Shown: positions 17,303 through 32,018 of the stretch, piece by piece
Layout of the letters: every line of letters begins with the position of its first letter
Numbering within the stretch: position 1 is the first letter of the stretch
From: Thioclava sediminum
GTDB taxonomy: Bacteria; Pseudomonadota; Alphaproteobacteria; Rhodobacterales; Rhodobacteraceae
DNA length: 64,000 nt
Direction: 5' to 3'
Assembly (NCBI RefSeq): GCF_002020355.1
Contig: NZ_MPZV01000001.1
Location: 186,001 to 250,000, forward strand
Notes under the pieces: model-generated
Told to the model about the DNA's origin: nothing
Seen by the model: the letters and a program-made list of their open reading frames with translations, nothing else
The model's database searches: none
Position numbers and translations under genes: made by a program

Positions 17303-17323
17303 GACGGGCGCTCGCTCTCGGCC

Positions 17324-18064: not shown

Positions 18065-18068
18065 CCGG

Positions 18069-18734
18069 TCACGTCTCGGCCTGCGCGATGCGCGCCGCAC
18101 AGCCTGCCGCGCAGAAGGCGACCAGCCCCTCGACGGAGGCTTGCGCATCTGACTGCGAGGCCAGCGCCGCGATCCGCCATTCCGAGGTCAGGAAGGCCAG
18201 AAGGGCTGCGACCGAATAGACGAAACCTTCGGCGACGACCGCCCGGCTGACCTTGGGATGCAGCGCGCAGATCTCGTCCATGAAGCGCTGCGCGGTCGGG
18301 TCGAACAGATCGGTCGAGATATCCGCCCAGGCCGGATCGGCAGAGACCATCGCCACGAGCCGCGCATAGGCCAGCCATTGCGGATCGCTGCCCGCCGCCT
18401 TCGCCAGATAGGGTCGGAAGAAACAGCCGAGGATCGCCGTCAAGTCAAGCGCCCCCTGCCCCTTCGCCTGCGCCAGAGCTTCCAGACGCAGACGCGCCAG
18501 CTCTTCGGCGCGCCGCTCCACAACTTCGCGAAACAGCGCCTCTTTCGAGCCTCCGTGATGGTTCACCAGACCCAGCGGCACCTCGGCCAGCGCGGCGATG
18601 TCGCGCACCTTCGCGCCCTCGAATCCATCCCGCGCGAACACCGTTTCCGCCGCATCGAGAATCCGTGAACGACTCGCGATGGAGCGCTTCGAGGGCGCTC
18701 TAAGTCGTTGTTTCTCGGTCGTCTTTTTCGTCAT
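18069..18734 (-). CDS. TetR/AcrR family transcriptional regulator
   Basis: A 221-aa regulator with an N-terminal TetR helix-turn-helix (FEGAKVRDIAALAEVPLGLV, about residues 38-57) and a helical C-terminal domain. A long divergent promoter separates it from the flavin monooxygenase operon and holds the palindrome TTGAAC-AATG-GTTCAA at 18755-18770, the likely operator. A related palindrome at 10591-10616 suggests this regulator also controls the acyl-CoA synthetase about 8 kb away. The N terminus is basic (KKTTEKQRLRAPSKRSIASR). Confidence 0.88.
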   Translation of the reverse strand: MTKKTTEKQRLRAPSKRSIASRSRILDAAETVFARDGFEGAKVRDIAALAEVPLGLVNHHGGSKEALFREVVERRAEELARLRLEALAQAKGQGALDLTAILGCFFRPYLAKAAGSDPQWLAYARLVAMVSADPAWADISTDLFDPTAQRFMDEICALHPKVSRAVVAEGFVYSVAALLAFLTSEWRIAALASQSDAQASVEGLVAFCAAGCAARIAQAET

Positions 18735-18754
18735 CAGATCGGGGCTTGCTTATT

Positions 18755-18770
18755 TTGAACAATGGTTCAA
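18755..18770. promoter_or_regulatory. TetR-type operator between TetR and flavin monooxygenase genes
   Basis: Inverted repeat TTGAAC-AATG-GTTCAA in the 64-bp divergent promoter. The same 6-4-6 design with core TGAAC/GTTCA occurs upstream of the acyl-CoA synthetase. Binding would block both divergent promoters. Confidence 0.75.
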
Positions 18771-18798
18771 TTTAAGAATGTCTGGGAGGAGACGCAAC

Positions 18799-20118
18799 AT
18801 GACAAATACGAGGGGCACGTTCGCCCTGATCGGCGCGGGCCCGATGGGTCTGGCCGCGGCCAAGGTGCTGGGCGAACAGGGAGTGGACTATCAGGGCTTC
18901 GAGCTGCACAGCGATGTGGGCGGGCTCTGGGATATCGAGGGTGCGCATTCGACGATGTATGAAAGCGCGCATCTGATTTCCTCGAAACGGATGACGGAAT
19001 TCACCGATTTTCCGATGCGCGAGGAGGTGGCCGAATATCCCAGTCACCGCGAGATGGCGCAGTATTTCCGCGATTTCGCCGATCATTTCGACATTCGCCG
19101 CCATTACCGTTTCGGCGCCGAGGTGACGAAACTTGAACCGCTGGGCGGCGATGGCGAAGGCTGGCGGGTCAGCTGGCGCGATGGCGAGGGCGAGCATTCG
19201 GAGGTCTATGCGGGCGTCTTGATTGCCAATGGCACGCTTTCCGAGCCGAACATGCCGGACTTCCCCGGCCAGTTCGACGGCGAGCTGATCCATTCTTCGG
19301 CCTATCGCGACCCCTCGCAATTCAAAGGCAAGCGCGTGCTCGTCGTGGGCGCGGGCAATTCTGGCTGCGACATCGCGGTGGACGCGATCCACCACGGCAA
19401 GAGCTGCGATCTTTCGATGCGGCGCGGCTATTACTTCGTGCCGAAATACGTCTTCGGCAAACCCGCCGATACGCTGGGCGGGGCGATCAAGCTGCCGATG
19501 TGGCTCAAGCGCAAGATCGACGGCGCGCTGCTGAAATGGTTCGTCGGCGATCCGCAGAAATACGGGTTCCCCAAGCCCGACTACAAACTCTACGAGAGCC
19601 ATCCGATCGTGAACTCGCTGGTTCTGTTCCACGCAGGCCACGGCGATCTGAAAGTGCGCCCCGATATCGAGCGGCTCGACGGTCACACGGTGCATTTCAA
19701 GGATGGCACGCAGGCCGAGTATGACATGATCCTCGCGGCCACCGGCTACAAGCTGCATTACCCGTTCATCGCGCCGGAGCTGCTGAACTGGCAAGGCGAT
19801 GCGCCGCATCTGTACCTGAACGCGATGCACCCGAAGCGCGACGATCTCTTCGTGCTGGGCATGCTGGAGGCGAGCGGGCTTGGCTGGCAGGGTCGCCACG
19901 AACAGGCCGAGATGGTGGCGCGCTACATTCGCGGGCTGCACGATGGCTCGGAGGCCGCGAAGCGCCTGCAGGCGAAGAAGGCCGAAGGGTTCGAGCGCGC
20001 GACCGGCGGCATGGCCTATCTCAAGCTCGCGCGGATGGCCTATTACGTGGACAAGGCGACCTATCGCAAGGCGGTCACCGGCTGGATCAAGGCGCTCGGC
20101 GGGAAGGCGGCGGCATGA
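18799..20118 (+). CDS. flavin-containing monooxygenase (FMO/BVMO-like)
   Basis: A 439-aa flavoprotein with an N-terminal FAD fold (ALIGAGPMGLAAAKVLG, about residues 8-24), a second Rossmann motif VVGAGNSGCDIA for NADPH (about 184-195), and the late ATGYKLHYPF motif shared by FMOs. It would insert oxygen into a nucleophilic heteroatom or a ketone. Start ATG 18799 follows GGGAGGAG. It is the first gene of a four-gene operon with 4-bp overlaps throughout (BASS transporter, epimerase, SDR) and is probably repressed by the divergent TetR protein. Confidence 0.9.
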   Translation: MTNTRGTFALIGAGPMGLAAAKVLGEQGVDYQGFELHSDVGGLWDIEGAHSTMYESAHLISSKRMTEFTDFPMREEVAEYPSHREMAQYFRDFADHFDIRRHYRFGAEVTKLEPLGGDGEGWRVSWRDGEGEHSEVYAGVLIANGTLSEPNMPDFPGQFDGELIHSSAYRDPSQFKGKRVLVVGAGNSGCDIAVDAIHHGKSCDLSMRRGYYFVPKYVFGKPADTLGGAIKLPMWLKRKIDGALLKWFVGDPQKYGFPKPDYKLYESHPIVNSLVLFHAGHGDLKVRPDIERLDGHTVHFKDGTQAEYDMILAATGYKLHYPFIAPELLNWQGDAPHLYLNAMHPKRDDLFVLGMLEASGLGWQGRHEQAEMVARYIRGLHDGSEAAKRLQAKKAEGFERATGGMAYLKLARMAYYVDKATYRKAVTGWIKALGGKAAA

Positions 20119-21017
20119 CGGGGCTCGACGCGGTTCGGCTGAATTTCAGCCCCGGCGCCCTGCATCTGCTCAACGCGATCCTCGGCATCGTCATGTTCTC
20201 GGTCGCGATCGACCTCTCCCCACGCGATTTCCGCCCGCTGGTGCGCAGGCCCTGGGCGCTGATCGTCGGGTTCACGTCGCAATTTCTGGTGCTGCCCGCG
20301 CTCACCTTCGGGCTGGTGCTGGCGCTGCAGCCCAGCCCGTCGATCGCACTGGGGCTGATCCTCGTGGCGGCCTGCCCGGGCGGGAATGTCTCGAACTTCT
20401 TCACCCATCGGGCGGGTGGGAACACGGCGCTCTCGGTCTCGCTGACCGCCTTCGCCACGGTGGCGGCAATCGTGCTGACGCCGCTCAATATCGCCTTCTG
20501 GGGAAGCCTGTACGCCCCGACGCGGGCGCTGCTGCACGAGACCCATATCGACCCGGTAAGCGTGGCGATCACCGTCGGTGTCATGCTGCTCTTACCGCTG
20601 ATCGCCGGGATCGCGCTGAACCACTACCGCTACGATCTGACGACGCGCCTTCGCGATCCGCTGAAATGGATTTCGATGGCGATTTTCGTGGCCTTCGTCG
20701 CGCTCTCGCTCAGCGCCAATTGGCAGTATTTCGTGCAATTCGTCGGGCTGATCGCGGGGATGGTCGTGATGCACAACGCGCTGGCCTTCGCGGGCGGCTA
20801 TGGCACCGCGACGCTAGCGCGGCTGTCGCCCTTCGACCGGCGCGCGATCACCATCGAGACCGGCATCCAGAATTCCGGCCTCGGCCTCGTGCTGATCTTC
20901 GCCTTCTTCGGGGGCCTGGGCGGCATGGCGATCGTCGCGGCCTTCTGGGGCATCTGGCACATCATCGCGGGCTTCGCGATCTCAACCATCATGAGACGAA
21001 AGGAGGCCGCGCGATGA
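20115..21017 (+). CDS. bile acid:sodium symporter (BASS) family transporter
   Basis: A 300-aa protein with about nine to ten hydrophobic segments. It contains VLVAACPGGNVSNFFTHRAGGN (about residues 92-113) and a later IETGIQNSGLGLVL, the two crossed discontinuous-helix motifs of BASS carriers. Such proteins import organic anions with sodium. Its position between a flavin monooxygenase and an epimerase suggests it takes up that pathway's substrate. The start overlaps the monooxygenase stop (ATGA). The exact solute is unknown. Confidence 0.9.
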   Translation: MTGLDAVRLNFSPGALHLLNAILGIVMFSVAIDLSPRDFRPLVRRPWALIVGFTSQFLVLPALTFGLVLALQPSPSIALGLILVAACPGGNVSNFFTHRAGGNTALSVSLTAFATVAAIVLTPLNIAFWGSLYAPTRALLHETHIDPVSVAITVGVMLLLPLIAGIALNHYRYDLTTRLRDPLKWISMAIFVAFVALSLSANWQYFVQFVGLIAGMVVMHNALAFAGGYGTATLARLSPFDRRAITIETGIQNSGLGLVLIFAFFGGLGGMAIVAAFWGIWHIIAGFAISTIMRRKEAAR

Positions 21018-21952
21018 CCCGGATCCTGATTACCGGTGCGGGCGGCATGATCGGCCGCGTGCTGACCGCAGAGCTGTCTGAGAGCGGCCATGAGGTCATC
21101 GCGACCGATCTGGCGGCCCCCGACACCCTGCCCGAAGCCGTGCGCTTCGTGGCGATGGATGTGACCACCGACGCCCCCGCCAAGGTGATCGCGCGCGAAC
21201 GGCCCGAGGTGATCGTGCATCTCGCTTCCATTGTGACGCCGGGCCCCGGCATGGGGCGCGAGCTGGCCTACCGGGTCGATGTGGAGGGCACGCGCAAGGT
21301 GCTGGAGGCGGCGCTTTCGGTCGGGGTTCGGCGGCTCGTCGTGACCTCCTCGGGCGCGGCCTATGGCTATCACGCCGACAATCCTGTGCCGCTGCGCGAG
21401 AGCGATCCGGTGCGCGGCAATCCCGAGTTCGCCTATGCCGATCACAAGCGGCTGGTCGAGGAGATGCTGGCCGAGGCGCGCACCGCCCACCCGGCCCTCG
21501 AACAGGTCGTGCTGCGGGTCGGCACCGTTCTGGGCAAGGGCACGGACAACCAGATCACAGCGCTTTTTCGCAAGCCGCGCCTGCTCGCGCTGAGGGGGTG
21601 CGAGAGCCCCTTCGTCTTCATCTGGACCCGCGATCTCGCGCGCATCCTGATCCGCGCTGCGACCGATGGGCCGCCCGGAATCTTCAACGTCGCGGGCGAC
21701 GGCGCGCTCGGCGTCAGCGATCTCGCGCGGCGTCTTGGCAAACCTGTGCGCCGCTTGCCCGCGCTTGGCATCAAGGCGGCGCTAGCCATCGCCCATCCGC
21801 TTGGGCTGAGCCGCTACGGACCCGAGCAGGTGCGCTTCCTGCAATACCGCCCCGTGCTGGCCAATGACGCGCTGAAGGAGGTCTTCGGCTACACGCCCGA
21901 GCTGACCAGCGCGGAAGTCTTCGATCTCTGGGCGCGCGAGGCCGGGCTATGA
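21014..21952 (+). CDS. NAD-dependent epimerase/dehydratase (extended SDR)
   Basis: A 312-aa extended short-chain dehydrogenase with the NAD motif ITGAGGMIGRVL (about residues 6-17) and catalytic Tyr-Lys in AYADHKRLVEE (about 142-152). The substrate could be a sugar acid or a hydroxy/keto compound. DenD-like D-erythronate dehydrogenases share this size and N terminus, but I would not name it further. Its ATG overlaps the transporter stop, and its own stop overlaps the next SDR gene, so all four products should be made together. Confidence 0.85.
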   Translation: MTRILITGAGGMIGRVLTAELSESGHEVIATDLAAPDTLPEAVRFVAMDVTTDAPAKVIARERPEVIVHLASIVTPGPGMGRELAYRVDVEGTRKVLEAALSVGVRRLVVTSSGAAYGYHADNPVPLRESDPVRGNPEFAYADHKRLVEEMLAEARTAHPALEQVVLRVGTVLGKGTDNQITALFRKPRLLALRGCESPFVFIWTRDLARILIRAATDGPPGIFNVAGDGALGVSDLARRLGKPVRRLPALGIKAALAIAHPLGLSRYGPEQVRFLQYRPVLANDALKEVFGYTPELTSAEVFDLWAREAGL

Positions 21953-22719
21953 GCACGCGGGTTGCGGTAATCTCGGGCGGCGCCGGGGGGCTTGGGCAGG
22001 CGCTCTCGGCGGGGCTGCGCGCCGAGGGCTGGCAGGTCGTGCTGCTCGACCGGGATATTTCGGGCCTTACCGCCGCGCCGAACGAAGAGGCGATCGCCTG
22101 CGATCTGACCGACGCGGATCAGCTTGCCAGCGCCTGCGCCGATATCCGCGCGCGCTATCCCCGCATCGATCTGGTGATCTATAATGCGGGCGTCACCCAA
22201 ATCGGGCCGTTCTCCGAGCTGACCGAGGCCGCGCATCGCAAGGTCTTCGAGATCAACTATTTCGCGGCGACCGCGATGGCGCGGCAGTTCCTCGAACCGC
22301 TCCGCGAAAGCCACGGCACGCATCTGGCGATTTCCTCGGTCGCGGGGTTTTCGCCGCTCTACCACCGCATGGCCTATGCAGCGTCGAAACATGCACTGGA
22401 AGGGTTCTTCAAGTCGCTTCGTTCGGAGGAAGCGCCGCATGGCGTGCGCGTGCAGATCGCGGCGCCGTCCTTCGTGGCGACCAATATCGACCGGGCCGAG
22501 CGGCAATCGGACGGCATCACGCGCCCCGGTGCGGCTGCGGACGGAGTGGATTACATGACGCCCGAGGCTGCCGCACAGGTGATCCTTACTGGGCTGAAGC
22601 GCGGCCGCCCGATGATCCCGGTGGGCCGCGTCGCGCGGCTCGCGTGGTGGATCAACCGCGCCTCGCCCCGGCTGTTCCAGCGGCTGATGGAGCGTAACAT
22701 CGCGAAGGGCCAATCCTGA
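21949..22719 (+). CDS. SDR family oxidoreductase
   Basis: A 256-aa classical short-chain dehydrogenase. It has ISGGAGGLGQALSAGL as the cofactor loop (about residues 6-21), YNAGVTQIGPF (NAG motif) and catalytic AYAASKHALEGFF (Tyr-Lys, about 141-153). The C-terminal extension VARLAWWINRASPRLFQRLME is amphipathic and may touch the membrane. It is the last gene of the flavin monooxygenase operon. A likely role is oxidation or reduction of an alcohol/ketone in the same pathway, for example after ester or lactone formation by a Baeyer-Villiger reaction; that is inference. Confidence 0.9.
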   Translation: MSTRVAVISGGAGGLGQALSAGLRAEGWQVVLLDRDISGLTAAPNEEAIACDLTDADQLASACADIRARYPRIDLVIYNAGVTQIGPFSELTEAAHRKVFEINYFAATAMARQFLEPLRESHGTHLAISSVAGFSPLYHRMAYAASKHALEGFFKSLRSEEAPHGVRVQIAAPSFVATNIDRAERQSDGITRPGAAADGVDYMTPEAAAQVILTGLKRGRPMIPVGRVARLAWWINRASPRLFQRLMERNIAKGQS

Positions 22720-22921
22720 CGACCGGCACGATGGCCTTTCGCTAAAGACCGCGAAAAATCGCACCCGACTTGATCGAGCGCATTGAAGCGACTCGTCCCC
22801 TCAGCGCTAATCTGGCCCCGATCCCGTGAAGGTCGGAGGCCCGTGATGCGCTCACTCTCTTCGATAGATTTCCGCCCCCCCCCGGAGGACGGGTGCGACC
22901 GAATGCTCCACCTCGGGCGCG

Positions 22922-22956
22922 TTGACTCCATTTGCGCGAATGCGCATATGCGAATG
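22922..22956 (+). promoter_or_regulatory. ArsR operon promoter with overlapping operator
   Basis: TTGACT at 22922 and CATATG at 22945 are spaced by 17 bp, as in a sigma-70 promoter. The perfect palindrome CGCATATGCG (22943-22952) and two direct copies of GCGAATG (22936 and 22950) cover the -10 region, as expected for an ArsR operator. Confidence 0.65.
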
Positions 22957-22973
22957 TAGAAATGGAGGCACCG

Positions 22974-23264
22974 ATGATCGTGACTGTTCTTTCCGCGCTT
23001 GCCGAACCCACCCGGCTGGGGGCGATGCAGCTTTTGCATGACGGGGGCGAGCATTGCGCCTGCGAGTTGATGGCGCGTCTCGATGCCACCCAGTCGCGCA
23101 TGTCGCGCCATATGAGCGTGCTGAAAGCCGCCGGGCTGGTGGTCGACCGGCGCGATGCGCAATGGGTCCGGTATCGGGTGAACCCCGACCTCTCCCCGGA
23201 AATCCAGCAGATTCTGAGCGCGGTCATGAAAGCCAGCGCCAACACGGAAAGGACCGCGGCATGA
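22974..23264 (+). CDS. ArsR/SmtB family metalloregulator
   Basis: A 96-aa winged-helix repressor. Cys28-Ala-Cys30 in EHCACELM lies in the position of the arsenite-binding ELCVCDL motif of ArsR, and the HTH is TQSRMSRHMSVLKAAGLV. It therefore probably senses As(III), Sb(III) or another soft metal. I start at ATG 22974, behind GGAGG; an upstream ATG at 22932 lies inside the putative operator. The stop overlaps the start of the permease gene (ATGA). Confidence 0.88.
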   Translation: MIVTVLSALAEPTRLGAMQLLHDGGEHCACELMARLDATQSRMSRHMSVLKAAGLVVDRRDAQWVRYRVNPDLSPEIQQILSAVMKASANTERTAA

Positions 23265-24322
23265 GTGTGACACAGCATGAAACCCCGCATGGCGGGATGC
23301 CCGGCTGGGCGTGGAGTGCAGTCGTCGCGGCAGGTCTCGTCGCTTGGTGGGTGGTCTACCACCAGCTCCCGGCACTCTCCGAATGGATCGTTTCGCTGCT
23401 GCCAGTCGCCCGCGACACCCATACCGGCGAAGCGCTGGCCTTCTTCTTCTACGACGTGCCGAAAGTGATGATGCTGCTCACCCTGATCGTCTTCGCGATG
23501 GGGGTCGTGCGCAGCTTCTTCAGCCCCGAAAAGACCCGCGCGCTTCTGTCGGGCAAGCGCGAGGGCGTCGGCAACGTGATGGCGGCGGGCTTGGGCGTCT
23601 TGACCCCGTTCTGCTCCTGCTCGGCGGTGCCGCTGTTCATCGGCTTCGTCTCCGCGGGCATCCCGCTGGGCGTCACCTTCTCCTTCCTGATCGCCGCCCC
23701 GATGGTCAACGAAGTGGCGCTGATCCTGCTGGTCGGCCTCGTCGGCTGGCCCGTGGCGCTGGTCTATCTCGGCTTCGGCCTCGCCATCGCGATCGTCGCG
23801 GGCTGGGTGATCGGCAGACTCCATGTCGAGGGCTGGCTGCAGGACTGGGTGCGCGACATCCATTCCGGCGCGACGACGCCGGGCGCGGCCGAGAGCGACG
23901 ATCTGAGTATGACCGACCGCTATCGCCTGGGCCTCGAGGCCGTACGCGAGATCTTCGCCAAGGTCTGGATCTGGATCATCGTCGGGATCGCCATGGGCGC
24001 GCTGATCCACGGCTATGTGCCGCAAGATCTGATGGTGCGCATCATGGGCTCGGGCACGTGGTGGTCGGTGCCGGCCGCCGTACTGATGGGCGTGCCGATG
24101 TACACCAACGCCGCCGGCGTCATCCCGATCGTCGAGGCGCTTCTGGGCAAGGGCGCGGCGCTCGGCACGGTTCTCGCCTTCATGATGTCGGTGATCGCGC
24201 TCTCCATGCCCGAGATGATCATCCTCCGTCAGGTTCTCAAACTGCGCCTGATCGCTGTGTTCATCGGGGTCGTCGCCAGCGGCATCCTCGCCGTCGGCTT
24301 CCTGTTCAACGCATTGTTCTAA
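23261..24322 (+). CDS. DUF318/ArsP-like permease (SO_0444 family)
   Basis: A 353-aa membrane protein with eight or more hydrophobic segments. TPFCSCSAVPLF (Cys118 and Cys120) is the hallmark of the ArsP/DUF318 permeases, which export trivalent methylarsenicals or, in related clades, other soft metals. GVPMYTNAAGVIPIVEALL is the repeat-half equivalent. It is coupled to an ArsR gene upstream and a small redox protein downstream, a frequent trio. No arsenate reductase, ArsM or ArsI is seen, so organoarsenical export is a possibility rather than a conclusion. Confidence 0.88.
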   Translation: MSVTQHETPHGGMPGWAWSAVVAAGLVAWWVVYHQLPALSEWIVSLLPVARDTHTGEALAFFFYDVPKVMMLLTLIVFAMGVVRSFFSPEKTRALLSGKREGVGNVMAAGLGVLTPFCSCSAVPLFIGFVSAGIPLGVTFSFLIAAPMVNEVALILLVGLVGWPVALVYLGFGLAIAIVAGWVIGRLHVEGWLQDWVRDIHSGATTPGAAESDDLSMTDRYRLGLEAVREIFAKVWIWIIVGIAMGALIHGYVPQDLMVRIMGSGTWWSVPAAVLMGVPMYTNAAGVIPIVEALLGKGAALGTVLAFMMSVIALSMPEMIILRQVLKLRLIAVFIGVVASGILAVGFLFNALF

Positions 24323-24333
24323 GGAGAAAAGAG

Positions 24334-24570
24334 ATGAAGGACGTCAAGGTTTACGGCCCCGGCTGCAAGCGCTGCGAAAAGACCGAGGAGATGGTCAAGG
24401 AAGCGGCCGCCAAGCTCGGCATCGAGGTCTCGGTCGAGAAGGTGACCGACCCCCGCGCAATCGCCATGGCGGGCGTGATGTCGACCCCCGGTGTCTCGGT
24501 CGACGGGAAGCTCGTCCATACGGGCGGCCTGCCGGATAGCGGAAAGCTCGAGGGTTGGCTGTCGGCCTGA
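24334..24570 (+). CDS. small thioredoxin-fold protein (TM0996/MTH895 family)
   Basis: A 78-aa redox protein beginning MKDVKVYGPGC, with a CKRC active site (Cys11, Cys14) and the cis-Pro segment VMSTPGVSVDG. This family is commonly adjacent to DUF318 permeases and ArsR regulators. It may reduce or hand over a thiol-bound metal to the permease. An AAGGAG site lies 7 bp before the ATG, and the gene is 11 bp after the permease. Confidence 0.88.
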   Translation: MKDVKVYGPGCKRCEKTEEMVKEAAAKLGIEVSVEKVTDPRAIAMAGVMSTPGVSVDGKLVHTGGLPDSGKLEGWLSA

Positions 24571-24600
24571 GGGGTCACTTAACCCTCCCGAAAAAGAAGA

Positions 24601-24622
24601 CCCCGCGCCGGGTGGCGCGGGG
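24601..24622. terminator. bidirectional terminator hairpin
   Basis: Perfect 9-bp stem CCCCGCGCC/GGCGCGGGG with a GGGT loop lies between convergent genes. An A-rich tract (GAAAAAGAAGA) precedes it, giving a T-rich tail for minus-strand transcripts; TAAATTA follows for the plus strand. Confidence 0.8.
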
Positions 24623-24643
24623 TAAATTAGAGCATTGCGTCCA

Positions 24644-25534
24644 TCATGGGACCGGCTGACCGAGCCCGGCCTCGTAGAGGCGGAACCACGTCTCCCTGTC
24701 GATCTGAACCTTCAAAGCATCGGAAAGCTTCGCGATCCGCTCGAGATTGTTGGTGCCCATCACCGGGATGATCCGCGCGGGATGCGCCAGCAGGAAAGCC
24801 GTCGCGACGGCGGCACGGTCCACGCCCTGCGCCTCGGCGATCTCGTCGAGAACGCTTTGCACCGGCCCCTCGCCCGTCATCAACGCGCCGCCGCACAGTG
24901 GCGACCACGCCATCACCGGCTGCGCCTGCCGCTGATGGAAGGCCAGATCGCCATTGGTGAAGGGCTGCAGGCAGCCAAGGCTGATCTCGATCTGGTTCGT
25001 CACCAGCGGCGTCTTCATCCCCGATTGCAGCAGCTCCCAATCCCACGGGCGGAAGTTTGACACGCCGACCGCGCGCACCTTGCCGGACGCCACGAGATCG
25101 TCGAGCACCGCTCCCGTCTCGTGATGGTCCATCAGCGGATCGGGGCGGTGGATCAGCAGCAGGTCGATCCGGTCGGTGGCCAATTCCCGCAGCGAAGCCT
25201 CGACCGAGGCTTCGATATGCGCGCGCGAGGTGTCGTAATGCTTCACCTTGCGATGCGAATGACGGCCTGCCGAGACGATGATGTCGCATTTCGTGACGAT
25301 CTCCATCTGATCGCGCAGCGACGGGTCCTCGCGCATCGCCGCGCCGAAGACCCCCTCCGCCGTATAGCCACCGTAGATGTCGGCATGGTCGAAGGTGGTG
25401 ATCCCCTGCTCCAGACAGGCGTCGATCTTGGCGCGCACATGGGCGGGCGAGGTGTCGGCATCATCGGCGAGCCGCCACATGCCATAGACGATCCGGCTGA
25501 GCGCGACATCCGAGGTAAGGTCGATCTTTTCCAT
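24644..25534 (-). CDS. aldo/keto reductase
   Basis: A 296-aa TIM-barrel oxidoreductase resembling E. coli YdhF. DHADIYGG carries the catalytic Asp-Tyr (about residues 50-57), and the C-terminal IPVMGTNNLERI with the preceding AQGVDRAAVATAFLLAHP is the NADPH-binding end. I start at ATG 25534 (MEKIDLTSDV). The same frame is open upstream for 28 codons because it reads into remnants of a decayed monooxygenase gene. The gene ends 21 bp from a bidirectional hairpin. Confidence 0.88.
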   Translation of the reverse strand: MEKIDLTSDVALSRIVYGMWRLADDADTSPAHVRAKIDACLEQGITTFDHADIYGGYTAEGVFGAAMREDPSLRDQMEIVTKCDIIVSAGRHSHRKVKHYDTSRAHIEASVEASLRELATDRIDLLLIHRPDPLMDHHETGAVLDDLVASGKVRAVGVSNFRPWDWELLQSGMKTPLVTNQIEISLGCLQPFTNGDLAFHQRQAQPVMAWSPLCGGALMTGEGPVQSVLDEIAEAQGVDRAAVATAFLLAHPARIIPVMGTNNLERIAKLSDALKVQIDRETWFRLYEAGLGQPVP

Positions 25535-25812
25535 TAGCGGCGTTTCCCTTCTGCGAGCGGTGTTGCGGGCGGTCCCATAGATTTCGGGCAGCGAGACCGT
25601 GTCGAGATGCGGCATCACAAGACGGCCGAACTGGCGTGCCTCGTCGATATGCGGATAGCCCTACAAGATGAAGGCGCGAATGCCCATCTCGCGGTATTCT
25701 TTGAGCTTCGAGAGCACTTGATCGGGAGAGTCCACCAGCGCCGCACCGCAGCCGGAGCGCGCGCCCCACCCCGGTCCAAAGGTTCGGCGCGACATAGCCG
25801 TTCTCATCCGCA
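25535..25812 (-). pseudogene. decayed LLM flavin monooxygenase fragment (SsuD-like C terminus)
   Basis: Pieces of an alkanesulfonate-monooxygenase-type C terminus can be read in different frames. YVAPNLWTGVG lies in one frame and CGAALVDSPDQVLSKLKEY plus MGIRAFIL in another, the shift falling near the C-tract at 25763-25773. An in-frame TAG (25661-25663, plus strand cta) follows, and then GYPHIDEARQFGRLVMPHLD. In SsuD relatives Ser stands at the stop position (FxxSGYPH), so TCG to TAG is the likely mutation. The N-terminal three quarters are absent. The remnant runs in frame into the aldo/keto reductase start. Confidence 0.75.
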
Positions 25813-26159
25813 CTGCAGTCATGCGTCTCTCCCTCGCGGTTCCTTTTCGACTCAACTGAAGTAAGCAACCTGCTTGATAGCGCACCGGCCTGCCGACCGA
25901 TCATCAGGTTTCCGAGTTGCTGTGTCGAGATATCGCAGCGGAACCCGAAAGACCCGGTGCAGCGCTCGATCGAGACCGGGGAGGCCGTGCACTTCCCCGC
26001 GCAGCCTTGGCGGCGCGGGGCCTGAGGGCACAGGGTCAGGCCGGGCCATGGCCTGGCCTCCTGCGCTCTGGGCGCGCGACACTGCGACGCTGAGTCACCC
26101 CTCAAGCGTTTGACGCGGATCAATTCTCGGCTCACCCTCATGTGATACGAGCTTGAGTG
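25813..26159. other. stretch without recognisable gene
   Basis: About 350 bp between the monooxygenase relic and the next plus-strand gene. Open frames here are short, proline/arginine-rich and match no family I know. It may hold further eroded sequence from the relic and the promoter of the NosL operon. Confidence 0.5.
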
Positions 26160-26675
26160 ATGACCCGACCCCAACGCGCCTCCAGAGCCTTTGACGGCAA
26201 GATCGACCGCGGCCCGCGCCTGCACGCGCCGCGCTTCGCTGGATTGCGCCGCGCGCAATCGGCGCTGCTGACCGCGCTCGTCGCGATCCTGCTGCAGGTC
26301 GTCCTGCTGACCGATCATCTGGGCGCTGCCGCCATCGCCGCTACCGGCCGGGCCGCGCCCGGCGCGCAGATGGGGCTGCTGCAGATCTGTACCGGCGAGG
26401 GCATCGTCTACATGACCCCGCAGGGCGAAACGGTCGCCGCGCCGGATGGGGCCGCGCCCCTGCCCGGCCAGACCGCGCCCACCGGTCAGGTCCACAGCCA
26501 ATGCGCGGTCTGCGGCTCGGCCTCGGTCTGCGCGTTTGAAGCCCCCGACACGATCGTCACTCCGGCCCGTCTCGACCGCGAGATCGCCCCGCTCCACGCG
26601 TCCCTTGAGCGGCTCTCTCTCCCGGTGCAGACCGCGCCCCGTTTCCGGCACGCCCGCGCCCCTCCTGTCGTCTGA
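26160..26675 (+). CDS. DUF2946-like membrane-anchored protein
   Basis: A 171-aa protein with one hydrophobic segment (LLTALVAILLQVVLLTDHL, about residues 39-57) and a Cys-rich motif QCAVCGSASVC near residues 117-127, reminiscent of DUF2946 proteins linked to copper. An extra Cys sits in LLQICTGEG. The start could be GTG 26157 or ATG 26160; neither has a good ribosome site. It is placed first before two NosL-type genes. The function is inferred to be metal binding in the periplasm. Confidence 0.6.
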   Translation: MTRPQRASRAFDGKIDRGPRLHAPRFAGLRRAQSALLTALVAILLQVVLLTDHLGAAAIAATGRAAPGAQMGLLQICTGEGIVYMTPQGETVAAPDGAAPLPGQTAPTGQVHSQCAVCGSASVCAFEAPDTIVTPARLDREIAPLHASLERLSLPVQTAPRFRHARAPPVV

Positions 26676-26785
26676 GTGCGTCCCTGCACGTCGATCCGGA
26701 CGTGCCTTTTCCAAACCAGACACATGGCTCGCGACTGCGCCCGTCTCTCGATGGCGGTGCGTTGCGATATGACAGGATGATCCCA

Positions 26786-27400
26786 ATGAAACGACGCGAC
26801 TTTCTTCTGACCTCTTCGACCGGCCTCGCGCTGGTGGCCTCCGGCGCAGCTGCCGAGGATATGAAACCGATGGACGGCATGCCGATGTCGCCGATGGACT
26901 GGACCGACCAGAACGGGCTGACCCGCTTTCTCAAGACCGACACCGCGCCGCTCGAGAACGAGTTCGAGAAATATCCCCGCTGCCCCTATTGCGGCATGAT
27001 GCGGCAGATGTTCAGCCAGACGCGCCACCTGATCGTCTATGACAACGACACGGTCGACGGCACCTGCTCGCTGCATTGCGCGGCGATCAGCCTCGCGCTG
27101 AACGTGGATGCGGGACCGAAGACGATCTACGCGGGCGATGCGGGGGCCACGGCCAAGGTCAAGCCGCTCGCGGTGGTCGATGACATGACCTACGTGATCG
27201 ACACGAAAAAGCCCGGCACGATGACCGGCACGTCGAAATACGCCTATGCCGACCCGGCCAAGGCGGATGCGGCGGCCAAGGACGGGGGCAAGCTGGCGAG
27301 CTTCGACGAGGCGCTGGTCATGGCCTATGCCGACATGGCGCGCGACACGATCAACATTCGCAAACGCCGCGCCGAGCGCCGCGCCCGCGCCGGTCAGTGA
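26786..27400 (+). CDS. NosL family copper chaperone-like lipoprotein/Tat protein (first copy)
   Basis: A 204-aa exported protein. A Tat signal (KRRDFLLTSSTGLALVAS) is followed by a Met-rich segment MKPMDGMPMSPMDW, then RCPYCGMMRQMF (Cys66, Cys69, Met residues) and CSLHC (Cys94, Cys98). NosL proteins deliver Cu(I) to nitrous oxide reductase, but no nosZ or nosDFY is nearby. The Met/Cys pattern points to copper binding in the periplasm. The ATG at 26786 is chosen because the signal peptide starts there. A second NosL gene follows 66 bp downstream. Confidence 0.83.
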   Translation: MKRRDFLLTSSTGLALVASGAAAEDMKPMDGMPMSPMDWTDQNGLTRFLKTDTAPLENEFEKYPRCPYCGMMRQMFSQTRHLIVYDNDTVDGTCSLHCAAISLALNVDAGPKTIYAGDAGATAKVKPLAVVDDMTYVIDTKKPGTMTGTSKYAYADPAKADAAAKDGGKLASFDEALVMAYADMARDTINIRKRRAERRARAGQ

Positions 27401-27466
27401 TCGCCTCAAGGCGGGGCCCGCGCGGCCCCGCCACTTTCCGAATACGTTTCAAGGAGTTGCAAGACG

Positions 27467-28039
27467 ATGTGCAACCATTCCTGCCATCACGGGGGCACGC
27501 CCGCACGCCCCCTGTCGCGCCCGACACGCCGCCAGATGCTCAAACGCGCCGCGGGCCTCGCCGCCACCCTCTCGCTCGGTCCGGGGCTGAGTGTTGCGCG
27601 CGCCGATGCGCCCACGCTCGACCTGCCCCCGCCCGGCCCCGGCGACACCTGCCCGGTCTGCGGCATGTTCGTTTACAAATACCCCGAATGGGTCACCACC
27701 GTGCTCTACGCGGATGGCTATGCCGATCATTTCGACGGCGCCAAGGACTACTTCAAATACATGTTCGACATGGAGAAATACGCCCTCGGCCGCAAAGCCG
27801 ACCAGATCACCGGCATGGGCGTGACCGAGTATTACGGGCTCAAGCTGATCGACGCGCGTGAAGCGCTTTATGTCGTGGGCTCGGACGTTCTGGGGCCGAT
27901 GGGCCATGAGCTGGTGCCGCTGATGAACGCGGTCGATGCGCAGGATTTCATGCGCGACCACAAGGGCCAGAAACTGTTACGCCATGACGAGGTCTCGCCG
28001 GAGTTGCTCGACGCGCTCGATCAGGGCGGCCCGTTCTGA
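27467..28039 (+). CDS. NosL family protein (second copy) with Tat signal
   Basis: A 190-aa protein whose N terminus has a Cys/His cluster (CNHSCHHGG) ahead of a twin-Arg signal RRQMLKRAAG. The mature part has DTCPVCGMFVYKYPEW (Cys62, Cys65, Met67), the NosL metal site, then a NosL fold to the end. It differs clearly from the first copy, so it is not a recent duplication. An AAGGAG site precedes the ATG. Its stop overlaps the next gene (TGATG), tying it to the membrane genes downstream. Confidence 0.85.
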   Translation: MCNHSCHHGGTPARPLSRPTRRQMLKRAAGLAATLSLGPGLSVARADAPTLDLPPPGPGDTCPVCGMFVYKYPEWVTTVLYADGYADHFDGAKDYFKYMFDMEKYALGRKADQITGMGVTEYYGLKLIDAREALYVVGSDVLGPMGHELVPLMNAVDAQDFMRDHKGQKLLRHDEVSPELLDALDQGGPF

Positions 28040-28362
28040 TGCGCCGCTCTAGCTATGTTTTCGCGGCGCTCGGTTGCCTGACGCTGCTGCTGGCGGTGGA
28101 GCTATATTACCCCGTCTTCGCGCGCCCCCATCGCGACGGCCGCCTGCTCGAAGAACGCACATTGGTCGCACGGCTGGGGCTGACCGACCCGGCGCTGTTT
28201 ACCGAGGCGCGCTATACCCGGAACCCCAGCCTCGCCGATCTGAACACGCCGTTTCAGGATCATCCGGGCAGCTTCGACCACTTCCCCTCCGGCACCTTCG
28301 TGCCGTCCCCCGCCACGCCCGGACAGGGCTGGCTCCTCTTCCAACCCGAGGCCGCGAAATGA
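28039..28362 (+). CDS. small signal-anchored protein of the NosL/ABC operon
   Basis: A 107-aa protein with one N-terminal hydrophobic helix (VFAALGCLTLLLAVELYYP) and a periplasmic tail ending PSPATPGQGWLLFQPEAAK. No family is recognised. It overlaps the NosL gene before it and the FtsX gene after it, so it is likely a structural partner of that complex. The segment DHPGSFDHFPSGTFVPSP carries several His residues that might bind metal; this is speculative. Confidence 0.65.
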   Translation: MRRSSYVFAALGCLTLLLAVELYYPVFARPHRDGRLLEERTLVARLGLTDPALFTEARYTRNPSLADLNTPFQDHPGSFDHFPSGTFVPSPATPGQGWLLFQPEAAK

Positions 28363-29501
28363 CCCCATTCCTGCGCCGCCAGCGCGCGCTGGCCGATTTC
28401 ACCCTCGCCGCTCTCGCCCGCCGCAAAGGCAAGAATATCGCCTTGATTGCAGTCTATTCCGTGGTGGTCTTCGTGCTCGCCTCGGCGATGTTCTTCGCCG
28501 CCAGCCTGCGGTTCGAGACCACGACCGTGCTCGAGGGCGCGCCCGAGATTACCGTGCAGAAGATCACGCTGGGCCGTCAGGACCTGATCGACGGTTCGGT
28601 CGCGGACGAGATCGCCGCAATCCGCGGTGTGACCGAGGCCCATCCCCGGCTCTGGGGCTATTATTACGACCGGATCAATGGCGCGAATTACACCGTCATG
28701 GTGCCCGACGACCCCGAGATGATGCCCGACCCCGGTCAGATCGCGATTGGCGAGGGCATCCCCCGCGCACGCGGCCTCGAATGGGCAGGCGCGCCGGTTT
28801 TCCTGTCGCGCTACGAGGGCGATCTGAAGAAATTCGACGTCGCCAAGACCTTCAGCCGCGATTCCGCGCTGATGACCTCGGATCTGATGCTGATGAACGA
28901 GGCTGATTTCCGCGACTTCTTCGACATACCCAAAGGCCGCTACACCGATGTCGTGGCCCGCGTGCGCAACCCCAACGAGGTCGCCACGATCGTCCAGAAA
29001 GGCTCGAACGCGCTGCCGCAGATGCGCTTCGTGACCCGCGCCGATATCGCGCGCACCTATCAGAAACTCTTCGACTGGCGCGAGGGGCTGCTGACGGCGC
29101 TGGCGTTCGCGGGCATCCTCGCCTTCGTCATTTTCGCCGCCGAAAAAGCCAGCGGGCTCTCGGCCGAAGAAGCGCGCGAGATCGGCATCCTCAAGGCTGT
29201 GGGCTGGAATACGCGCGACGTGATCGCGATGAAGATGTGGGAAGGCGGGCTGATCTCGCTCGCAGCCTTTCTGATCGGCACCGTTGCGGGCTTCGCCCAT
29301 GTGTTCTTCTTCGGCGCCCCACTCTTCGCGCCGATCCTGAAGGGCTGGGCGGTGATCTATCCCGATTTCCCGCTGAGCCCGCATGTGGACGGGCTGCAAC
29401 TGCTGACGCTCGCGCTGCTGACCACCCTGCCCTATATCGCCGCGACCGTGGTGCCGATCTGGCGCACGGCGTCGGCCGATCCCGATGCCGTAATGCGCTG
29501 A
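28359..29501 (+). CDS. FtsX/MacB-type ABC transporter permease
   Basis: A 380-aa permease. A first membrane helix (IALIAVYSVVVFVLASAMFF, about residues 28-47) is followed by a large extracytoplasmic domain and then an FtsX domain with three helices. ARSEEAREIGILKAVGW-like sequence (AEEAREIGILKAVGWNTRDV) is the coupling region. MacB-type permeases do not pump through a pore but move periplasmic cargo mechanically. The next gene is its ATPase. Overlap with the upstream gene (ATGA) indicates coupled synthesis. Confidence 0.88.
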   Translation: MTPFLRRQRALADFTLAALARRKGKNIALIAVYSVVVFVLASAMFFAASLRFETTTVLEGAPEITVQKITLGRQDLIDGSVADEIAAIRGVTEAHPRLWGYYYDRINGANYTVMVPDDPEMMPDPGQIAIGEGIPRARGLEWAGAPVFLSRYEGDLKKFDVAKTFSRDSALMTSDLMLMNEADFRDFFDIPKGRYTDVVARVRNPNEVATIVQKGSNALPQMRFVTRADIARTYQKLFDWREGLLTALAFAGILAFVIFAAEKASGLSAEEAREIGILKAVGWNTRDVIAMKMWEGGLISLAAFLIGTVAGFAHVFFFGAPLFAPILKGWAVIYPDFPLSPHVDGLQLLTLALLTTLPYIAATVVPIWRTASADPDAVMR

Positions 29502-29511
29502 GGAGGCCCCC

Positions 29512-30210
29512 ATGATCACTCTGCAATCCGTGACCAAGACCTATAATGCGGGCCGCCCGAATGCCGTGACCGCGCTGGACGGGATCGACCTGAGCATCGA
29601 GGGCCGGGCCGTCACCGTGCTCAAGGGGCCGTCGGGCTCGGGAAAATCCTCGCTCCTGTCGGTCGTGGCCTGCATGGCGCGCCCCTCCACGGGCCGCGTC
29701 AGCCTCGACGGCGAGGTCGTCTCGGGCCTGCCCGAGCACTTCCAGACCGAACTGCGGCGCGAGCGGTTCGGCTTCATCTTCCAGCGGTTCAACCTCGTGC
29801 GCGGTCTGACCGTGCTGGAAAACGTGATGCTGCCAGCCGCGCCGCTGGGTCAGCCCTTCGGAGAGCTCCGCGCGCGGGCGATGGACCGGATCGAGGCGCT
29901 GGGTCTGGGGCCGCGCGCCCAGACCCGGATCGAGTTGCTCTCGGGCGGCGAGGCGCAGCGCGCAGCGATTGCGCGGGCGCTCATCAACGATCCGCCGATC
30001 CTGATCGCGGATGAGCCCACGGCCAATCTCGACAGCGCGCTCTCCGAGACCTTCCTGCAGATCGTCGCCGAGGAGAAAGCGCGCGGGCGCACCGTCATCA
30101 TGTCGAGCCACGACCCCCGCGTCTGGGGCGCGGACTGCGTCGACCGGGTGGTTTCGATGCGCGACGGGCGGATCGAGGATGCCCCTGCCCAGCAGGAGCC
30201 GCAGCCATGA
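29512..30210 (+). CDS. ABC transporter ATP-binding protein (MacB/LolD type)
   Basis: A 232-aa ATPase with Walker A GPSGSGKSSLLS (about residues 42-53), signature LSGGEAQRAAIARAL, Walker B ILIADEPTAN and the H-loop SSHDPRVW. Similarity is to the LolD/MacB ATPases that partner FtsX-type permeases. It starts 10 bp after the permease with an AGGAGG site, and overlaps the following membrane gene by 4 bp. Confidence 0.92.
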   Translation: MITLQSVTKTYNAGRPNAVTALDGIDLSIEGRAVTVLKGPSGSGKSSLLSVVACMARPSTGRVSLDGEVVSGLPEHFQTELRRERFGFIFQRFNLVRGLTVLENVMLPAAPLGQPFGELRARAMDRIEALGLGPRAQTRIELLSGGEAQRAAIARALINDPPILIADEPTANLDSALSETFLQIVAEEKARGRTVIMSSHDPRVWGADCVDRVVSMRDGRIEDAPAQQEPQP

Positions 30211-31205
30211 TCTTTCAAACGCCGATCATGGCGCTGTTGCTGGTGGCGGGTCTGGCCGCGCTGACGGCCCTCTGGGCGGGCGGCTTCGCCGTCACCGTTC
30301 TGCGCCGCTGGGATCTGACGGATATGGGCGCGCGCCAGCTGCGCATGGAGCGGATGACCGAGTTGGTCTCGACCCTCTTCGCCGCCGTCATGCTGGCCGA
30401 GCTCGCGGCGCTTTTGCTCTTCGTCTTCAATGCCGACCGGATGTCGTCGCTCTTCGTCGGCGCAATGTGTGCGGTCGGCACGCTCAACGTGAACGATTAC
30501 GGCTTCCCCGCGCTCTATCTCAAGATCGGCGTGTTTTTCGCCGCCGTGATCTGGCTGATCCTCGACCGGGCCGACAGGCTGGGCCGGGACTACCCGCTGA
30601 CCCGCGTGAAATACGCAGCCCTTCTCGCGATCACGCCGCTGATCCTTGCCGATGGCGCGGTCGAGCTGGGCTATTTCCTCGACATGCAGACCGATGTGAT
30701 CACCTCGTGCTGCTCGAAGCTGTTCACGCCGAACAATCCCAATCTCGCGAACCAGATGGCGGGCGTCGGCGAGGCGCAGGCGCTCTGGCTGCTTGGCCTC
30801 ACCGCACTGATCGGCTTGGCTGCGGGGATTGCGGCGCTGATCCGCAAGCGCGGCTACGGGCTTTACGCGCTGGCCTCGGCGCTGATGTTCGGGATGGGAC
30901 TGACCGCGATCGTCGCCACGATCTCGCTCTATATCTATGAAAACCCCAACCATCATTGCCCGTTCTGCATCCTCAAGCCCGAATACGGCTATGTCGGCTA
31001 CGCGCTCTATGTCCCGCTGTTTCTGGCCACCGCAGCCGGGCTTGGGGCGGGCGCGCTCAGCCCGTTTCAAAAGCGCGCCTCGCTGGCGGGGCCGTTGCCG
31101 GGTCTGATGCGGCGGCTGCTGATCTGGTCGATGGCCGGGTTCGCCACCTTCGGGATCGTCTGCCTGATCGTGATCTGGCGCTCGCATCTGATCCTCTTCG
31201 GCTAA
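30207..31205 (+). CDS. polytopic membrane protein with Cys/His motifs, NosL/ABC operon
   Basis: A 332-aa membrane protein with about eight hydrophobic segments. Two conserved-looking metal or redox motifs stand out, VITSCCSKLFTPNN (Cys168, Cys169) and ENPNHHCPFCILK (His249, His250, Cys251, Cys254), both next to helix ends. I do not recognise a named family. As the last gene of an operon with two NosL proteins and an FtsX/ABC pair, it may pass copper or electrons across the membrane. That role is inferred from motifs and context only. Confidence 0.7.
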   Translation: MIFQTPIMALLLVAGLAALTALWAGGFAVTVLRRWDLTDMGARQLRMERMTELVSTLFAAVMLAELAALLLFVFNADRMSSLFVGAMCAVGTLNVNDYGFPALYLKIGVFFAAVIWLILDRADRLGRDYPLTRVKYAALLAITPLILADGAVELGYFLDMQTDVITSCCSKLFTPNNPNLANQMAGVGEAQALWLLGLTALIGLAAGIAALIRKRGYGLYALASALMFGMGLTAIVATISLYIYENPNHHCPFCILKPEYGYVGYALYVPLFLATAAGLGAGALSPFQKRASLAGPLPGLMRRLLIWSMAGFATFGIVCLIVIWRSHLILFG

Positions 31206-31310
31206 GCTGTCCGCGATGCGGGCGACCCCGATTTGGGCCAGTGTCGCGCCGGGCTATGTCGTAAGGCAACCGCGCCAAGCGCGGGAACGCGAACTGGAGG
31301 AGGACTGACC

Positions 31311-32006
31311 ATGAGCAAAGCACAGGCGGTGATTATCGGAGTGGGCGACGGGCTTTCAGCCGCCGTGGCGCGGGAGCTTGCGCCCGATTATGACCTCACG
31401 CTGGCCGCCCGCAGCGCCGAGAAGATGCAGGCACTGGCCGAGGAGACCGGCGCGCGCATGGTGCAGCTGGACGCGACCGACGAAGCCGCGATTACCGATC
31501 TGTTCGACGCCCTGCCCGCGCCGCCGCGCGTCGTCGTCTACAACCCGTCCGGCCGGGTGCGCGGCCCGGTGGCGGAACTCGATGCCGACGAGGTTCGCGC
31601 CGCCGTCGAGATCACCGCAATCGGAGCGTTTCTGACCGGCAAACACGCCGCGCGGCGGATGCTCGAAGCCGAGCCCGCCGAAGGTGTTCGCGGCACGATC
31701 CTGTTCACCGGGGCTTCTGCCGGGGTGAAAGGGTTCGCGCGCTCCGCCCCCTTCGCGATGGGCAAATTCGCGCAGCGCGGGCTGGCCGAGAGCATGGCGC
31801 GCGAATTGCATCCCCAAGGCATCCATGTCGCGTGGGTGAATATCGACGGCATGATCCTCAATCCGGGCCGCAGCGAGGCGCCCTACAAACCCGGCTCGAT
31901 GCTGCGCCCCGCAGCAATCGCGAAGACCTATCGCCAGCTGATCGAGCAGGATCGCAGCGCCTGGACCAACGAGATCACGCTGCGCCCATGGGTCGAGACG
32001 TTCTGA
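31311..32006 (+). CDS. SDR-fold protein lacking the catalytic Tyr
   Basis: A 231-aa Rossmann protein of SDR shape. The cofactor loop is IIGVGDGLSAAVAREL instead of the usual TGxxxGxG. Where YxxxK is expected, it reads SAPFAMGKFAQRGL, so Phe replaces the catalytic Tyr while the Lys is kept. Either it is a weak or altered dehydrogenase or it has another role. The ATG follows CTGGAGGAG. It lies between the NosL operon and a convergent ThDP enzyme gene, and appears to be its own transcript. Confidence 0.8.
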   Translation: MSKAQAVIIGVGDGLSAAVARELAPDYDLTLAARSAEKMQALAEETGARMVQLDATDEAAITDLFDALPAPPRVVVYNPSGRVRGPVAELDADEVRAAVEITAIGAFLTGKHAARRMLEAEPAEGVRGTILFTGASAGVKGFARSAPFAMGKFAQRGLAESMARELHPQGIHVAWVNIDGMILNPGRSEAPYKPGSMLRPAAIAKTYRQLIEQDRSAWTNEITLRPWVETF

Positions 32007-32018
32007 GGCGGCGGGCGC

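Follow-up and report, generated by a model that had tools for sequence, protein, structure and literature searches.

The operon analysed here lies in a 64,000-nucleotide stretch of the Thioclava sediminum genome (contig NZ_MPZV01000001.1, positions 186,001 to 250,000; hereafter the window, in whose own coordinates all positions are given). It spans 26157-31205 on the + strand, on which all of its parts located below lie too, and its seven genes encode a DUF2946 protein, two NosL proteins (NosLa and NosLb), a small protein (p4), an FtsX/LolC-type ATP-binding cassette (ABC) permease, an ABC ATPase and an eight-helix membrane protein (M8). All seven genes were confirmed, in the places that the initial annotation had given them, and their association is more than chance, since the set recurs in 88 loci. 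The junctions between them are, in gene order, +110, +66, -1, -4, +10 and -4 nt. The first two gaps are longer, and from the second NosL gene onward there are actually four junctions, all tight, where five of six had initially been counted.

The host genome (4.1 Mb, completeness 99.99) holds no NosL genes besides the two of the operon, and the GC content (0.663 vs 0.654) gives no hint of horizontal gain or relocation. Nitrous oxide reductase (NosZ) is absent from the whole genome, in which the TIGR04244 profile found only matches of 18.9 bits (profile positions 556-620), which we read as the CuA part of the profile, and of 8.7 bits. This probe works, as the same search detected NosZ above the cut-off in four of the ten genomes covered; PF18764 proved a poor NosZ probe, silent on the control, and TIGR04244 was used in its place.

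Gene 1 (26157..26675, with a GTG start and an ATG at 26160) matches Pfam DUF2946 with 27.7 bits (cut-off 23.7). The family had been recognised in the initial annotation, but the leader function had been missed: by its motifs and a predicted pairing, gene 1 is a leader open reading frame (ORF) of the CruR/CutF type, putatively responsive to copper. It stands first in a copper-type operon, carries a CXXC motif (CAVC, codons at 26502..26513) and ends in RAPPVV, of which RAPP (codons at 26655..26666) is, by motif comparison, of the arrest-motif type. In the predicted minimum-free-energy fold, the Shine-Dalgarno (SD) strand of NosLa (26771..26777) pairs inside the RAPP-stop codons of the leader, with an anti-SD arm lying over its last codons (26663..26669); the shuffle test of this pairing gave p 0.033, and the whole-region fold a z of -1.99.

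Twelve DUF2946 matches were found among the 88 loci, and all have the CXXC motif and, near the end, either RAPP (10) or RGPP (2); C78, C116, C119, R167, P169 and P170 are kept in 12/12. The pairing was tested in 11 of the 12 leaders (L049, with a poorly placed NosLa start, was left out). In 6 of the 11 it exceeded that of the shuffles with p up to 0.053; the combined p of 2e-5 is optimistic, because the loci are related. The paired strands vary in sequence from locus to locus, and thus the structure itself appears to be kept. Short ORFs with CXXC and R[AG]PP, missed by the DUF2946 profile, also lie upstream of the cluster in L054, L071, L076, L084 and L068, so that the leader may be commoner than counted.

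Comparable leaders are described in excerpts of published reports. CruR of Bordetella pertussis is a DUF2946 leader with CXXC and RAPP, whose operon is on when copper is scarce and off when copper is sensed (PMC9426467). In CutF of Rhodobacter capsulatus the motif is CXXXC, a stem-loop covers the start site that follows, and copper binding favours translation (PMC9973294). CutF-like genes near NosL and NosZ have already been noted in such excerpts (PMC8456105, PMC9973294).

Genes 2 and 3 encode two unlike NosL proteins, as initially annotated: NosLa (26786..27400), with CPYCGM and CSLHC motifs, and NosLb (27467..28039), with CPVCGM, score 38.1 and 105.6 bits against Pfam NosL (cut-off 24). NosLb matches solved NosL (7og7, 7osf and 7znq), with NosL chains of NosDFYL structures among its matches. 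NosLa had no sequence match in the Protein Data Bank (PDB) at E 1, and its model (pLDDT 87.7, pTM 0.77) matches NosL 7og7 in fold (E 4.4e-5, TM 0.65 by target length). CXXCGM is kept in both proteins. In NosLa, C66, C69, M71, C94, C98 and M146 are invariant in 46 aligned members, and the extra CSxHC motif has C94 and C98 in 51/51 and H97 in 47/51; in NosLb, C62, C65 and M67 occur in 60/60 members and M145 in 59/60.

A CXM copper motif, a second conserved Met and a lipobox anchor are given as features of NosL, and CXXCXM as the form of clade II NosL, in an excerpt of PMC6530538. CXM is present as C69-M71 in NosLa and C65-M67 in NosLb, and M146 and M145, respectively, would correspond to the second Met, judging from the alignment of NosLb with PDB chains. 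On reading, the signal region of both window proteins lacks the lipobox of a lipoprotein anchor. Among the relatives devoid of an RR motif, the only ones counted, a lipobox-like motif occurs in 2/17 NosLa and 3/39 NosLb. Both window signals have the RR motif, Tat-like in NosLa, yet models of twin-arginine translocation (Tat) signals score below their cut-offs; of the Tat signals initially proposed, the motif therefore stands and the model score does not.

In a tree of NosL proteins, NosLa and NosLb are mostly separate, and two Methylococcales rows join oddly. The tree held four canonical NosL rows, three long-branched, L038 badly trimmed, and one identical to a 'b' row; L043 was dropped. We read it as two diverged paralogs, and it carries no weight beyond that. 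Methylomonas (L093:8535-10049) and Methylovulum (L116) have a NosL-like ORF of about 505-530 aa, and this pair branches apart from the other rows. Aliiruegeria lutimaris (L049:8573-9700) has a NosLa ORF lacking CxxCGM and a NosLb split in two ORFs, by decay or assembly error, and Paramagnetospirillum kuznetsovii (L054) carries two NosLa-type genes, one on either side of the core.

Gene 4 (28039..28362) encodes p4, a small protein with, by reading, one membrane anchor and a conserved tail in which H81, F82 and P83 occur in 85/85 members; neither Pfam nor NCBIfam yields a match for it at E 0.1. Gene 5 (28359..29501; Pfam FtsX 38.3 bits, cut-off 25.5) is the permease, and gene 6 (29512..30210; Pfam ABC_tran 100.5 bits, cut-off 25) an ATPase of the LolD/FtsE/MacB type. 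In a PDB search, the permease profile matches LolC, LolE, LolF and YtrF chains. The protein had been called an FtsX/MacB permease; the FtsX type is upheld, while the likeness to MacB is not, as it is closer to LolC/LolE/LolF/YtrF by sequence. The best NCBIfam matches of the ATPase are FtsE, MacB and LolD, all under cut-off. Scores remain below the equivalog cut-offs of LolCDE (LolC/E 31.4 vs 362.45; LolD 170 vs 307.75), MacB (ATPase 171.6 vs 966, with ATPase and permease being two genes) and FtsE (177.7 vs 264.85). The FtsX-type ABC class works by mechanotransmission. L081 is a locus in which M8 and the ATPase stand inverted with respect to the permease.

Gene 7 (30207..31205) encodes M8, for which eight helices with CC and HHCxxC motifs had been described. 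Structure prediction gave a confident model (pLDDT 93.7, pTM 0.92) of eight long helices, and both CC and HHCPFC are found in the protein. At E 0.1, M8 of the window matches no family of Pfam or NCBIfam; when 69 members were compared with Pfam, scattered weak matches appeared (best E 4.2e-4, TgpA_N, 3 members), which are taken as chance. The M8 profile has no PDB sequence match at E 1, and Foldseek found no PDB fold match for the model at E 0.001, the TM-score being, barring rounding, at most 0.4 in the best 50 of 420 rows. Alignment shows M87, C88, C168, C169, H249, H250 and C251 in 75/75 members and C254 in 74/75. The three loops that bear these MC, CC and HHCPFC residues have a mean of 2.8 Lys/Arg in 79 positions, and the opposite side 8.5 in 59. 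Given the positive-inside rule, the site of one Met, five Cys and two His is thus predicted to be periplasmic. It may bind Cu(I) or cycle disulfides, both being candidate roles.

The initial annotation proposed a search of genomes for NosL beside FtsX/LolD-type genes. We scanned one genome per species (84,980 species) with the permease alignment, which gave at least 588 pattern matches and at least 227 confirmed relatives, the best 80 of which were kept. Together with the window and seven loci (L005, L014-L019) they make up the 88 loci, many of them on short contigs; the permease is present in 88/88, and nearly all of these were fetched by it. The set recurs, not always complete, in several phyla: p4 has a homolog in 86 loci, the ATPase in 86, M8 in 83 and NosL in 61. 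In the 56 loci flanked by 6 kb or more on each side (hereafter well-flanked), p4, the ATPase and M8 each occur in 55 and NosL in 46. Of the 81 loci that combine p4, permease and M8, 79 have them in collinear order. NosL lies upstream in 34 of the 88 loci and downstream in 23; 3 loci have it on both sides, and 28, short contigs among them, gave none. Relatives occur among Rhodobacteraceae, Rhodocyclaceae, Gallionellaceae, magnetospirilla and Sedimenticola, and further among Geobacteraceae, Desulfobulbaceae, Myxococcota, Nitrospirota and Methylomonas.

The permease was found at E 1e-10 in 8/398 phylum genomes, including its own. M8 occurs in 6/394 family genomes (among them its own and one whose copy is interrupted by a stop), in 2/196 order genomes, both of the window's genus, and in 1/385 class-sample genomes, its own; G662, which also belongs to the class, stems from another sample. 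No matches were found on plasmids (M8 and permease queries) or viral contigs (permease query). One congener (G088) has homologs of all seven genes together, their proteins being 56-84 percent identical (for gene 1 within residues 35-136 only), in a cluster that by reading adjoins mur/fts-type genes. At the G088 site that corresponds to the window, the genes at about 16.2-17.3 kb and at 32.0 kb lie directly next to each other, and about 14.7 kb (window about 17310-32015), operon included, is missing. Another congener (G100) gave no M8 match. This patchy spread and the different sites fit horizontal gain or relocation. Besides the operon, the segment missing in G088 encodes short-chain dehydrogenases, a TauE permease, an SBF symporter and an FMO-like enzyme. 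Upstream of the operon, at 23054-24570, an ArsP_1-type permease is followed by a small Thioredoxin_3 protein; both are outside the conserved set.

Copper and thiol proteins recur around the cluster. Among the 56 well-flanked loci, same-strand neighbours, counted as relatives of single representative proteins, were TlpA-like proteins (29 loci), DsbD_2 proteins (20), P-type ATPases (16), a small ATPase-cat_bd protein (16), SCO (10), CusA (6), TonB receptors (5) and multicopper oxidases related to that of L103 (3). Two of the P-type ATPases were compared with the copper model TIGR01511 and both exceed its cut-off of 397, scoring 560 and 576 bits, and the TonB receptor of L122 has the copper receptor TIGR01778 as its best match, at 251.7 and thus below the cut-off of 472.45. 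In many relatives a TlpA-like thioredoxin is encoded directly after M8. Very long proteins are encoded downstream of the cluster in metagenome-assembled genomes (MAGs) of Desulfocapsaceae and Desulfobulbaceae (L103:17589-21140, L106:17470-21102); that of L103 has a multicopper-oxidase domain and FG-GAP repeats.

NosZ is a frequent, not obligatory, companion of the cluster, and probably one of its clients elsewhere. TIGR04244 found it in 27 of 49 other carrier genomes (these 49 stem from 50 of the 80 loci) and in 5/9 carriers of the first genome search. Four of the 27 are over the cut-off, 4 are partial, and 19 are full-length at 366-406 bits, which we take for members of the second NosZ clade. 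Within the phylum sample, NosZ is present in 5/8 carriers and 56/390 others (Fisher p 0.003, kinship ignored), or in 5/7 carriers when the own genome is left aside (p 0.001), 53 of the 61 matches being over the cut-off; here the samples behind the carrier and NosZ counts, alike in size and in genome labels, were taken as the same draw, and the carriers overlap those of the first genome search. The initial suggestion that the genes possibly serve another cuproenzyme is not demonstrated by these numbers. Nor does the cluster always follow nosZ, though this does occur.

nosZ lies within about 10 kb of the cluster in 3/88 loci, a lower bound since many contigs are short. In Azoarcus taiwanensis (L094), nosZ, an apparent nosR (part), nosD, nosF, nosY and a further NosL gene come before the cluster, which is thus additional to NosDFY-NosL there. 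A Thauera MAG has nosZ before the cluster and no other NosL in the examined stretch, and a Rubrivivax MAG has nosZ 0.27 kb after M8. Where nosZ lies elsewhere in the genome, its stretch holds a NosL of its own in G586, G601 and G662, and none in the partial stretches of G810 and G639.

Three enzymes were rejected as obligatory clients: NosZ, which is lacking in 22/49 carriers; haem-copper oxidase, as PF00115 at E 1e-10 is found in only 36/43 genomes (G100, not a carrier, among them); and multicopper oxidase, as PF07731 at E 1e-5 is found in only 15/26, the same non-carrier being among the 26. Absences in the PF07731 search are not firm, since the L103 multicopper oxidase alone matches this family (E 9.9e-10) and its genome (G952) gave no match at 1e-5. 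In 14 control genomes, PF00115 was found in 8, PF07731 in 8 and TIGR04244 over the cut-off in none. As none of the three enzymes is universal, the machine is not tied to any single tested enzyme. The window genome has five PF00115 and two PF07731 matches, and these proteins are possible clients. Thiocyanate dehydrogenase, which we take to be a NosZ-like copper enzyme, was also considered; no top-ranked open-access PubMed Central match has it together with NosL.

On balance, and with some reserve, we consider it probable that the operon encodes a copper-regulated FtsX-type ABC machine that moves Cu(I) between NosL carriers and cuproenzymes located outside the cytoplasm; judged from sequence, it most likely works like NosDFY-NosL without being a member of that system. 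The nascent gene 1 chain would sense copper via CXXC. Pausing at RAPP would place the ribosome over the anti-SD arm and so free the NosLa start site, copper either causing or relieving the pause. Once exported, NosLa and NosLb would carry Cu(I) on their conserved CXXCGM sites, as their family suggests. The permease and ATPase would drive Cu(I) transfer between the NosL carriers and the membrane by mechanotransmission, with p4 as a putative fixed adaptor, and the thiol/histidine/methionine site of M8 would bind Cu(I) in the periplasm or keep relay thiols reduced. Copper would then be delivered to extracytoplasmic cuproenzymes, namely NosZ where present and others here. That this is a copper machine separate from nosDFY, as was first suggested, agrees with the copper-type P-type ATPase, SCO, CusBA and L122 receptor neighbours, with the leader type and with the extra cluster of L094. 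A wider proposal, which we hold tentatively as a possibility, is that of an unrecognised class of envelope copper machine, in which an FtsX-type ABC transporter would power Cu(I) hand-over between the two NosL paralogs and M8, and the RAPP-stop codons of a copper-sensing arrest-peptide leader would mask the NosLa start; having spread horizontally across distant phyla, the machine would serve cuproenzymes that differ from host to host.

Several observations weigh against a copper-passing machine of this kind. The core can occur without a nearby NosL, given that 46 of the 56 well-flanked loci have one. Leaders L045, L047 and L050 lack the SD pairing, which in L046 and L097 is weak. None of the client enzymes is universal: 7/42 carriers have neither NosZ nor a haem-copper oxidase match, and these are mostly MAGs of unknown completeness, with one isolate, Trichlorobacter thiogenes. 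Moreover, the direction of transfer is not readable from sequence, the open-access literature searched yielded no experimental work on these genes, and CusBA adjoins some relatives, which fits detoxification.

Copper detoxification, in which excess periplasmic Cu(I) would be moved from the inner membrane and the NosL proteins to an export route (a resistance-nodulation-division (RND) pump, a multicopper oxidase) and copper would switch the operon on, seems to us unlikely, though it deserves weighing. It would explain the same-strand CusA homologs, the relatives of the L103 multicopper oxidase and the copper P-type ATPases near some clusters, and several of the carriers devoid of both NosZ and haem-copper oxidase are deltaproteobacterial-type MAGs. 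CutF, of the same leader type, raises multicopper oxidase production with copper in R. capsulatus according to an excerpt of PMC9973294. However, no outer-membrane factor or membrane-fusion protein was found by Pfam among the seven window proteins, and the leader has CXXC and RAPP like CruR, whose operon is shut by copper (excerpt of PMC9426467), and not the CXXXC of CutF; in addition, the SCO, TlpA-like and DsbD_2 neighbours suggest the assembly of metal centres. An auxiliary module for NosZ maturation, orphaned in this genome because nosZ was lost or never came with it, is quite unlikely. The enrichment of NosZ among carriers speaks for it, as do the loci shared with nosZ in Azoarcus, Thauera and Rubrivivax and the congener G100, which has NosZ and no M8 match. 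On the other side, the 22 carriers lacking NosZ include the isolates Trichlorobacter thiogenes, Geobacter sp. OR-1 and Rhodobacter sp. TJ_12, and G088, with homologs of all seven genes, also lacks NosZ; in both that genome and the window's the seven genes are open, which is unlike decay.

We regard it as very unlikely that the cargo of the ABC part is a thiol compound or an envelope protein, with M8 as a thiol-disulfide carrier and copper involved indirectly. The cysteines of M8, the TlpA-like and DsbD_2 neighbours and the relation of the permease to the lipoprotein-releasing LolC would suit such a role, but the same operon holds two NosL paralogs and a copper-type leader. Moreover, having no lipobox, the window NosL proteins are not obvious Lol cargo.

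The copper loading of periplasmic enzymes without release of toxic Cu(I) is an open problem; the known example in which an ABC transporter takes part in the hand-over is NosDFY-NosL. If the proposed copper-passing machine is real, it would be a second, widespread one, built on another permease class and equipped with a new membrane protein and a copper sensor of its own. NosL would then be a general copper carrier and not just a NosZ chaperone, and cultured bacteria would offer a system in which to test this. As many carriers encode NosZ, the machine may bear on N2O reduction under scarce copper. The cluster is real, widespread and undescribed in the literature searched: no description of NosL with an FtsX-type transporter was found in open-access PubMed Central, and the terms FtsX, ABC transporter and MacB are missing from the main texts of three CruR/CutF leader papers.

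Among known systems, the operon resembles LolCDE, FtsEX and MacB in having an FtsX-domain permease with an FtsE/LolD/MacB-like ATPase, and differs from them in scores far below the equivalog cut-offs, in separate genes for ATPase and permease, and in its NosL and M8 partners. With NosDFY-NosL it shares an ABC transporter encoded together with NosL, including the NosL chains matched by NosLb and the NosL fold of NosLa. NosY is an ABC-2 type permease, whereas the permease here is of the FtsX/LolC type, none of the seven proteins matches NosD or NosY in Pfam, there are two NosL paralogs, p4 and M8 are added, and nosZ is seldom close by. A NosL-NosDFY locus of Parageobacillus, for which another recipient is suggested in an excerpt of a 2026 paper (PMC13068155), is alike in combining a NosL relay and an ABC transporter without NosZ; there the transporter is NosDFY, here an FtsX-type permease with p4 and M8. 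The leader is like CruR and CutF in its DUF2946 domain, CXXC, C-terminal RAPP and lead position in a copper-type operon, and differs in that the genes downstream are those of NosL, FtsX and M8; its SD:RAPP-stop pairing is like the stem-loop of CutF, and its motif pair like that of CruR.

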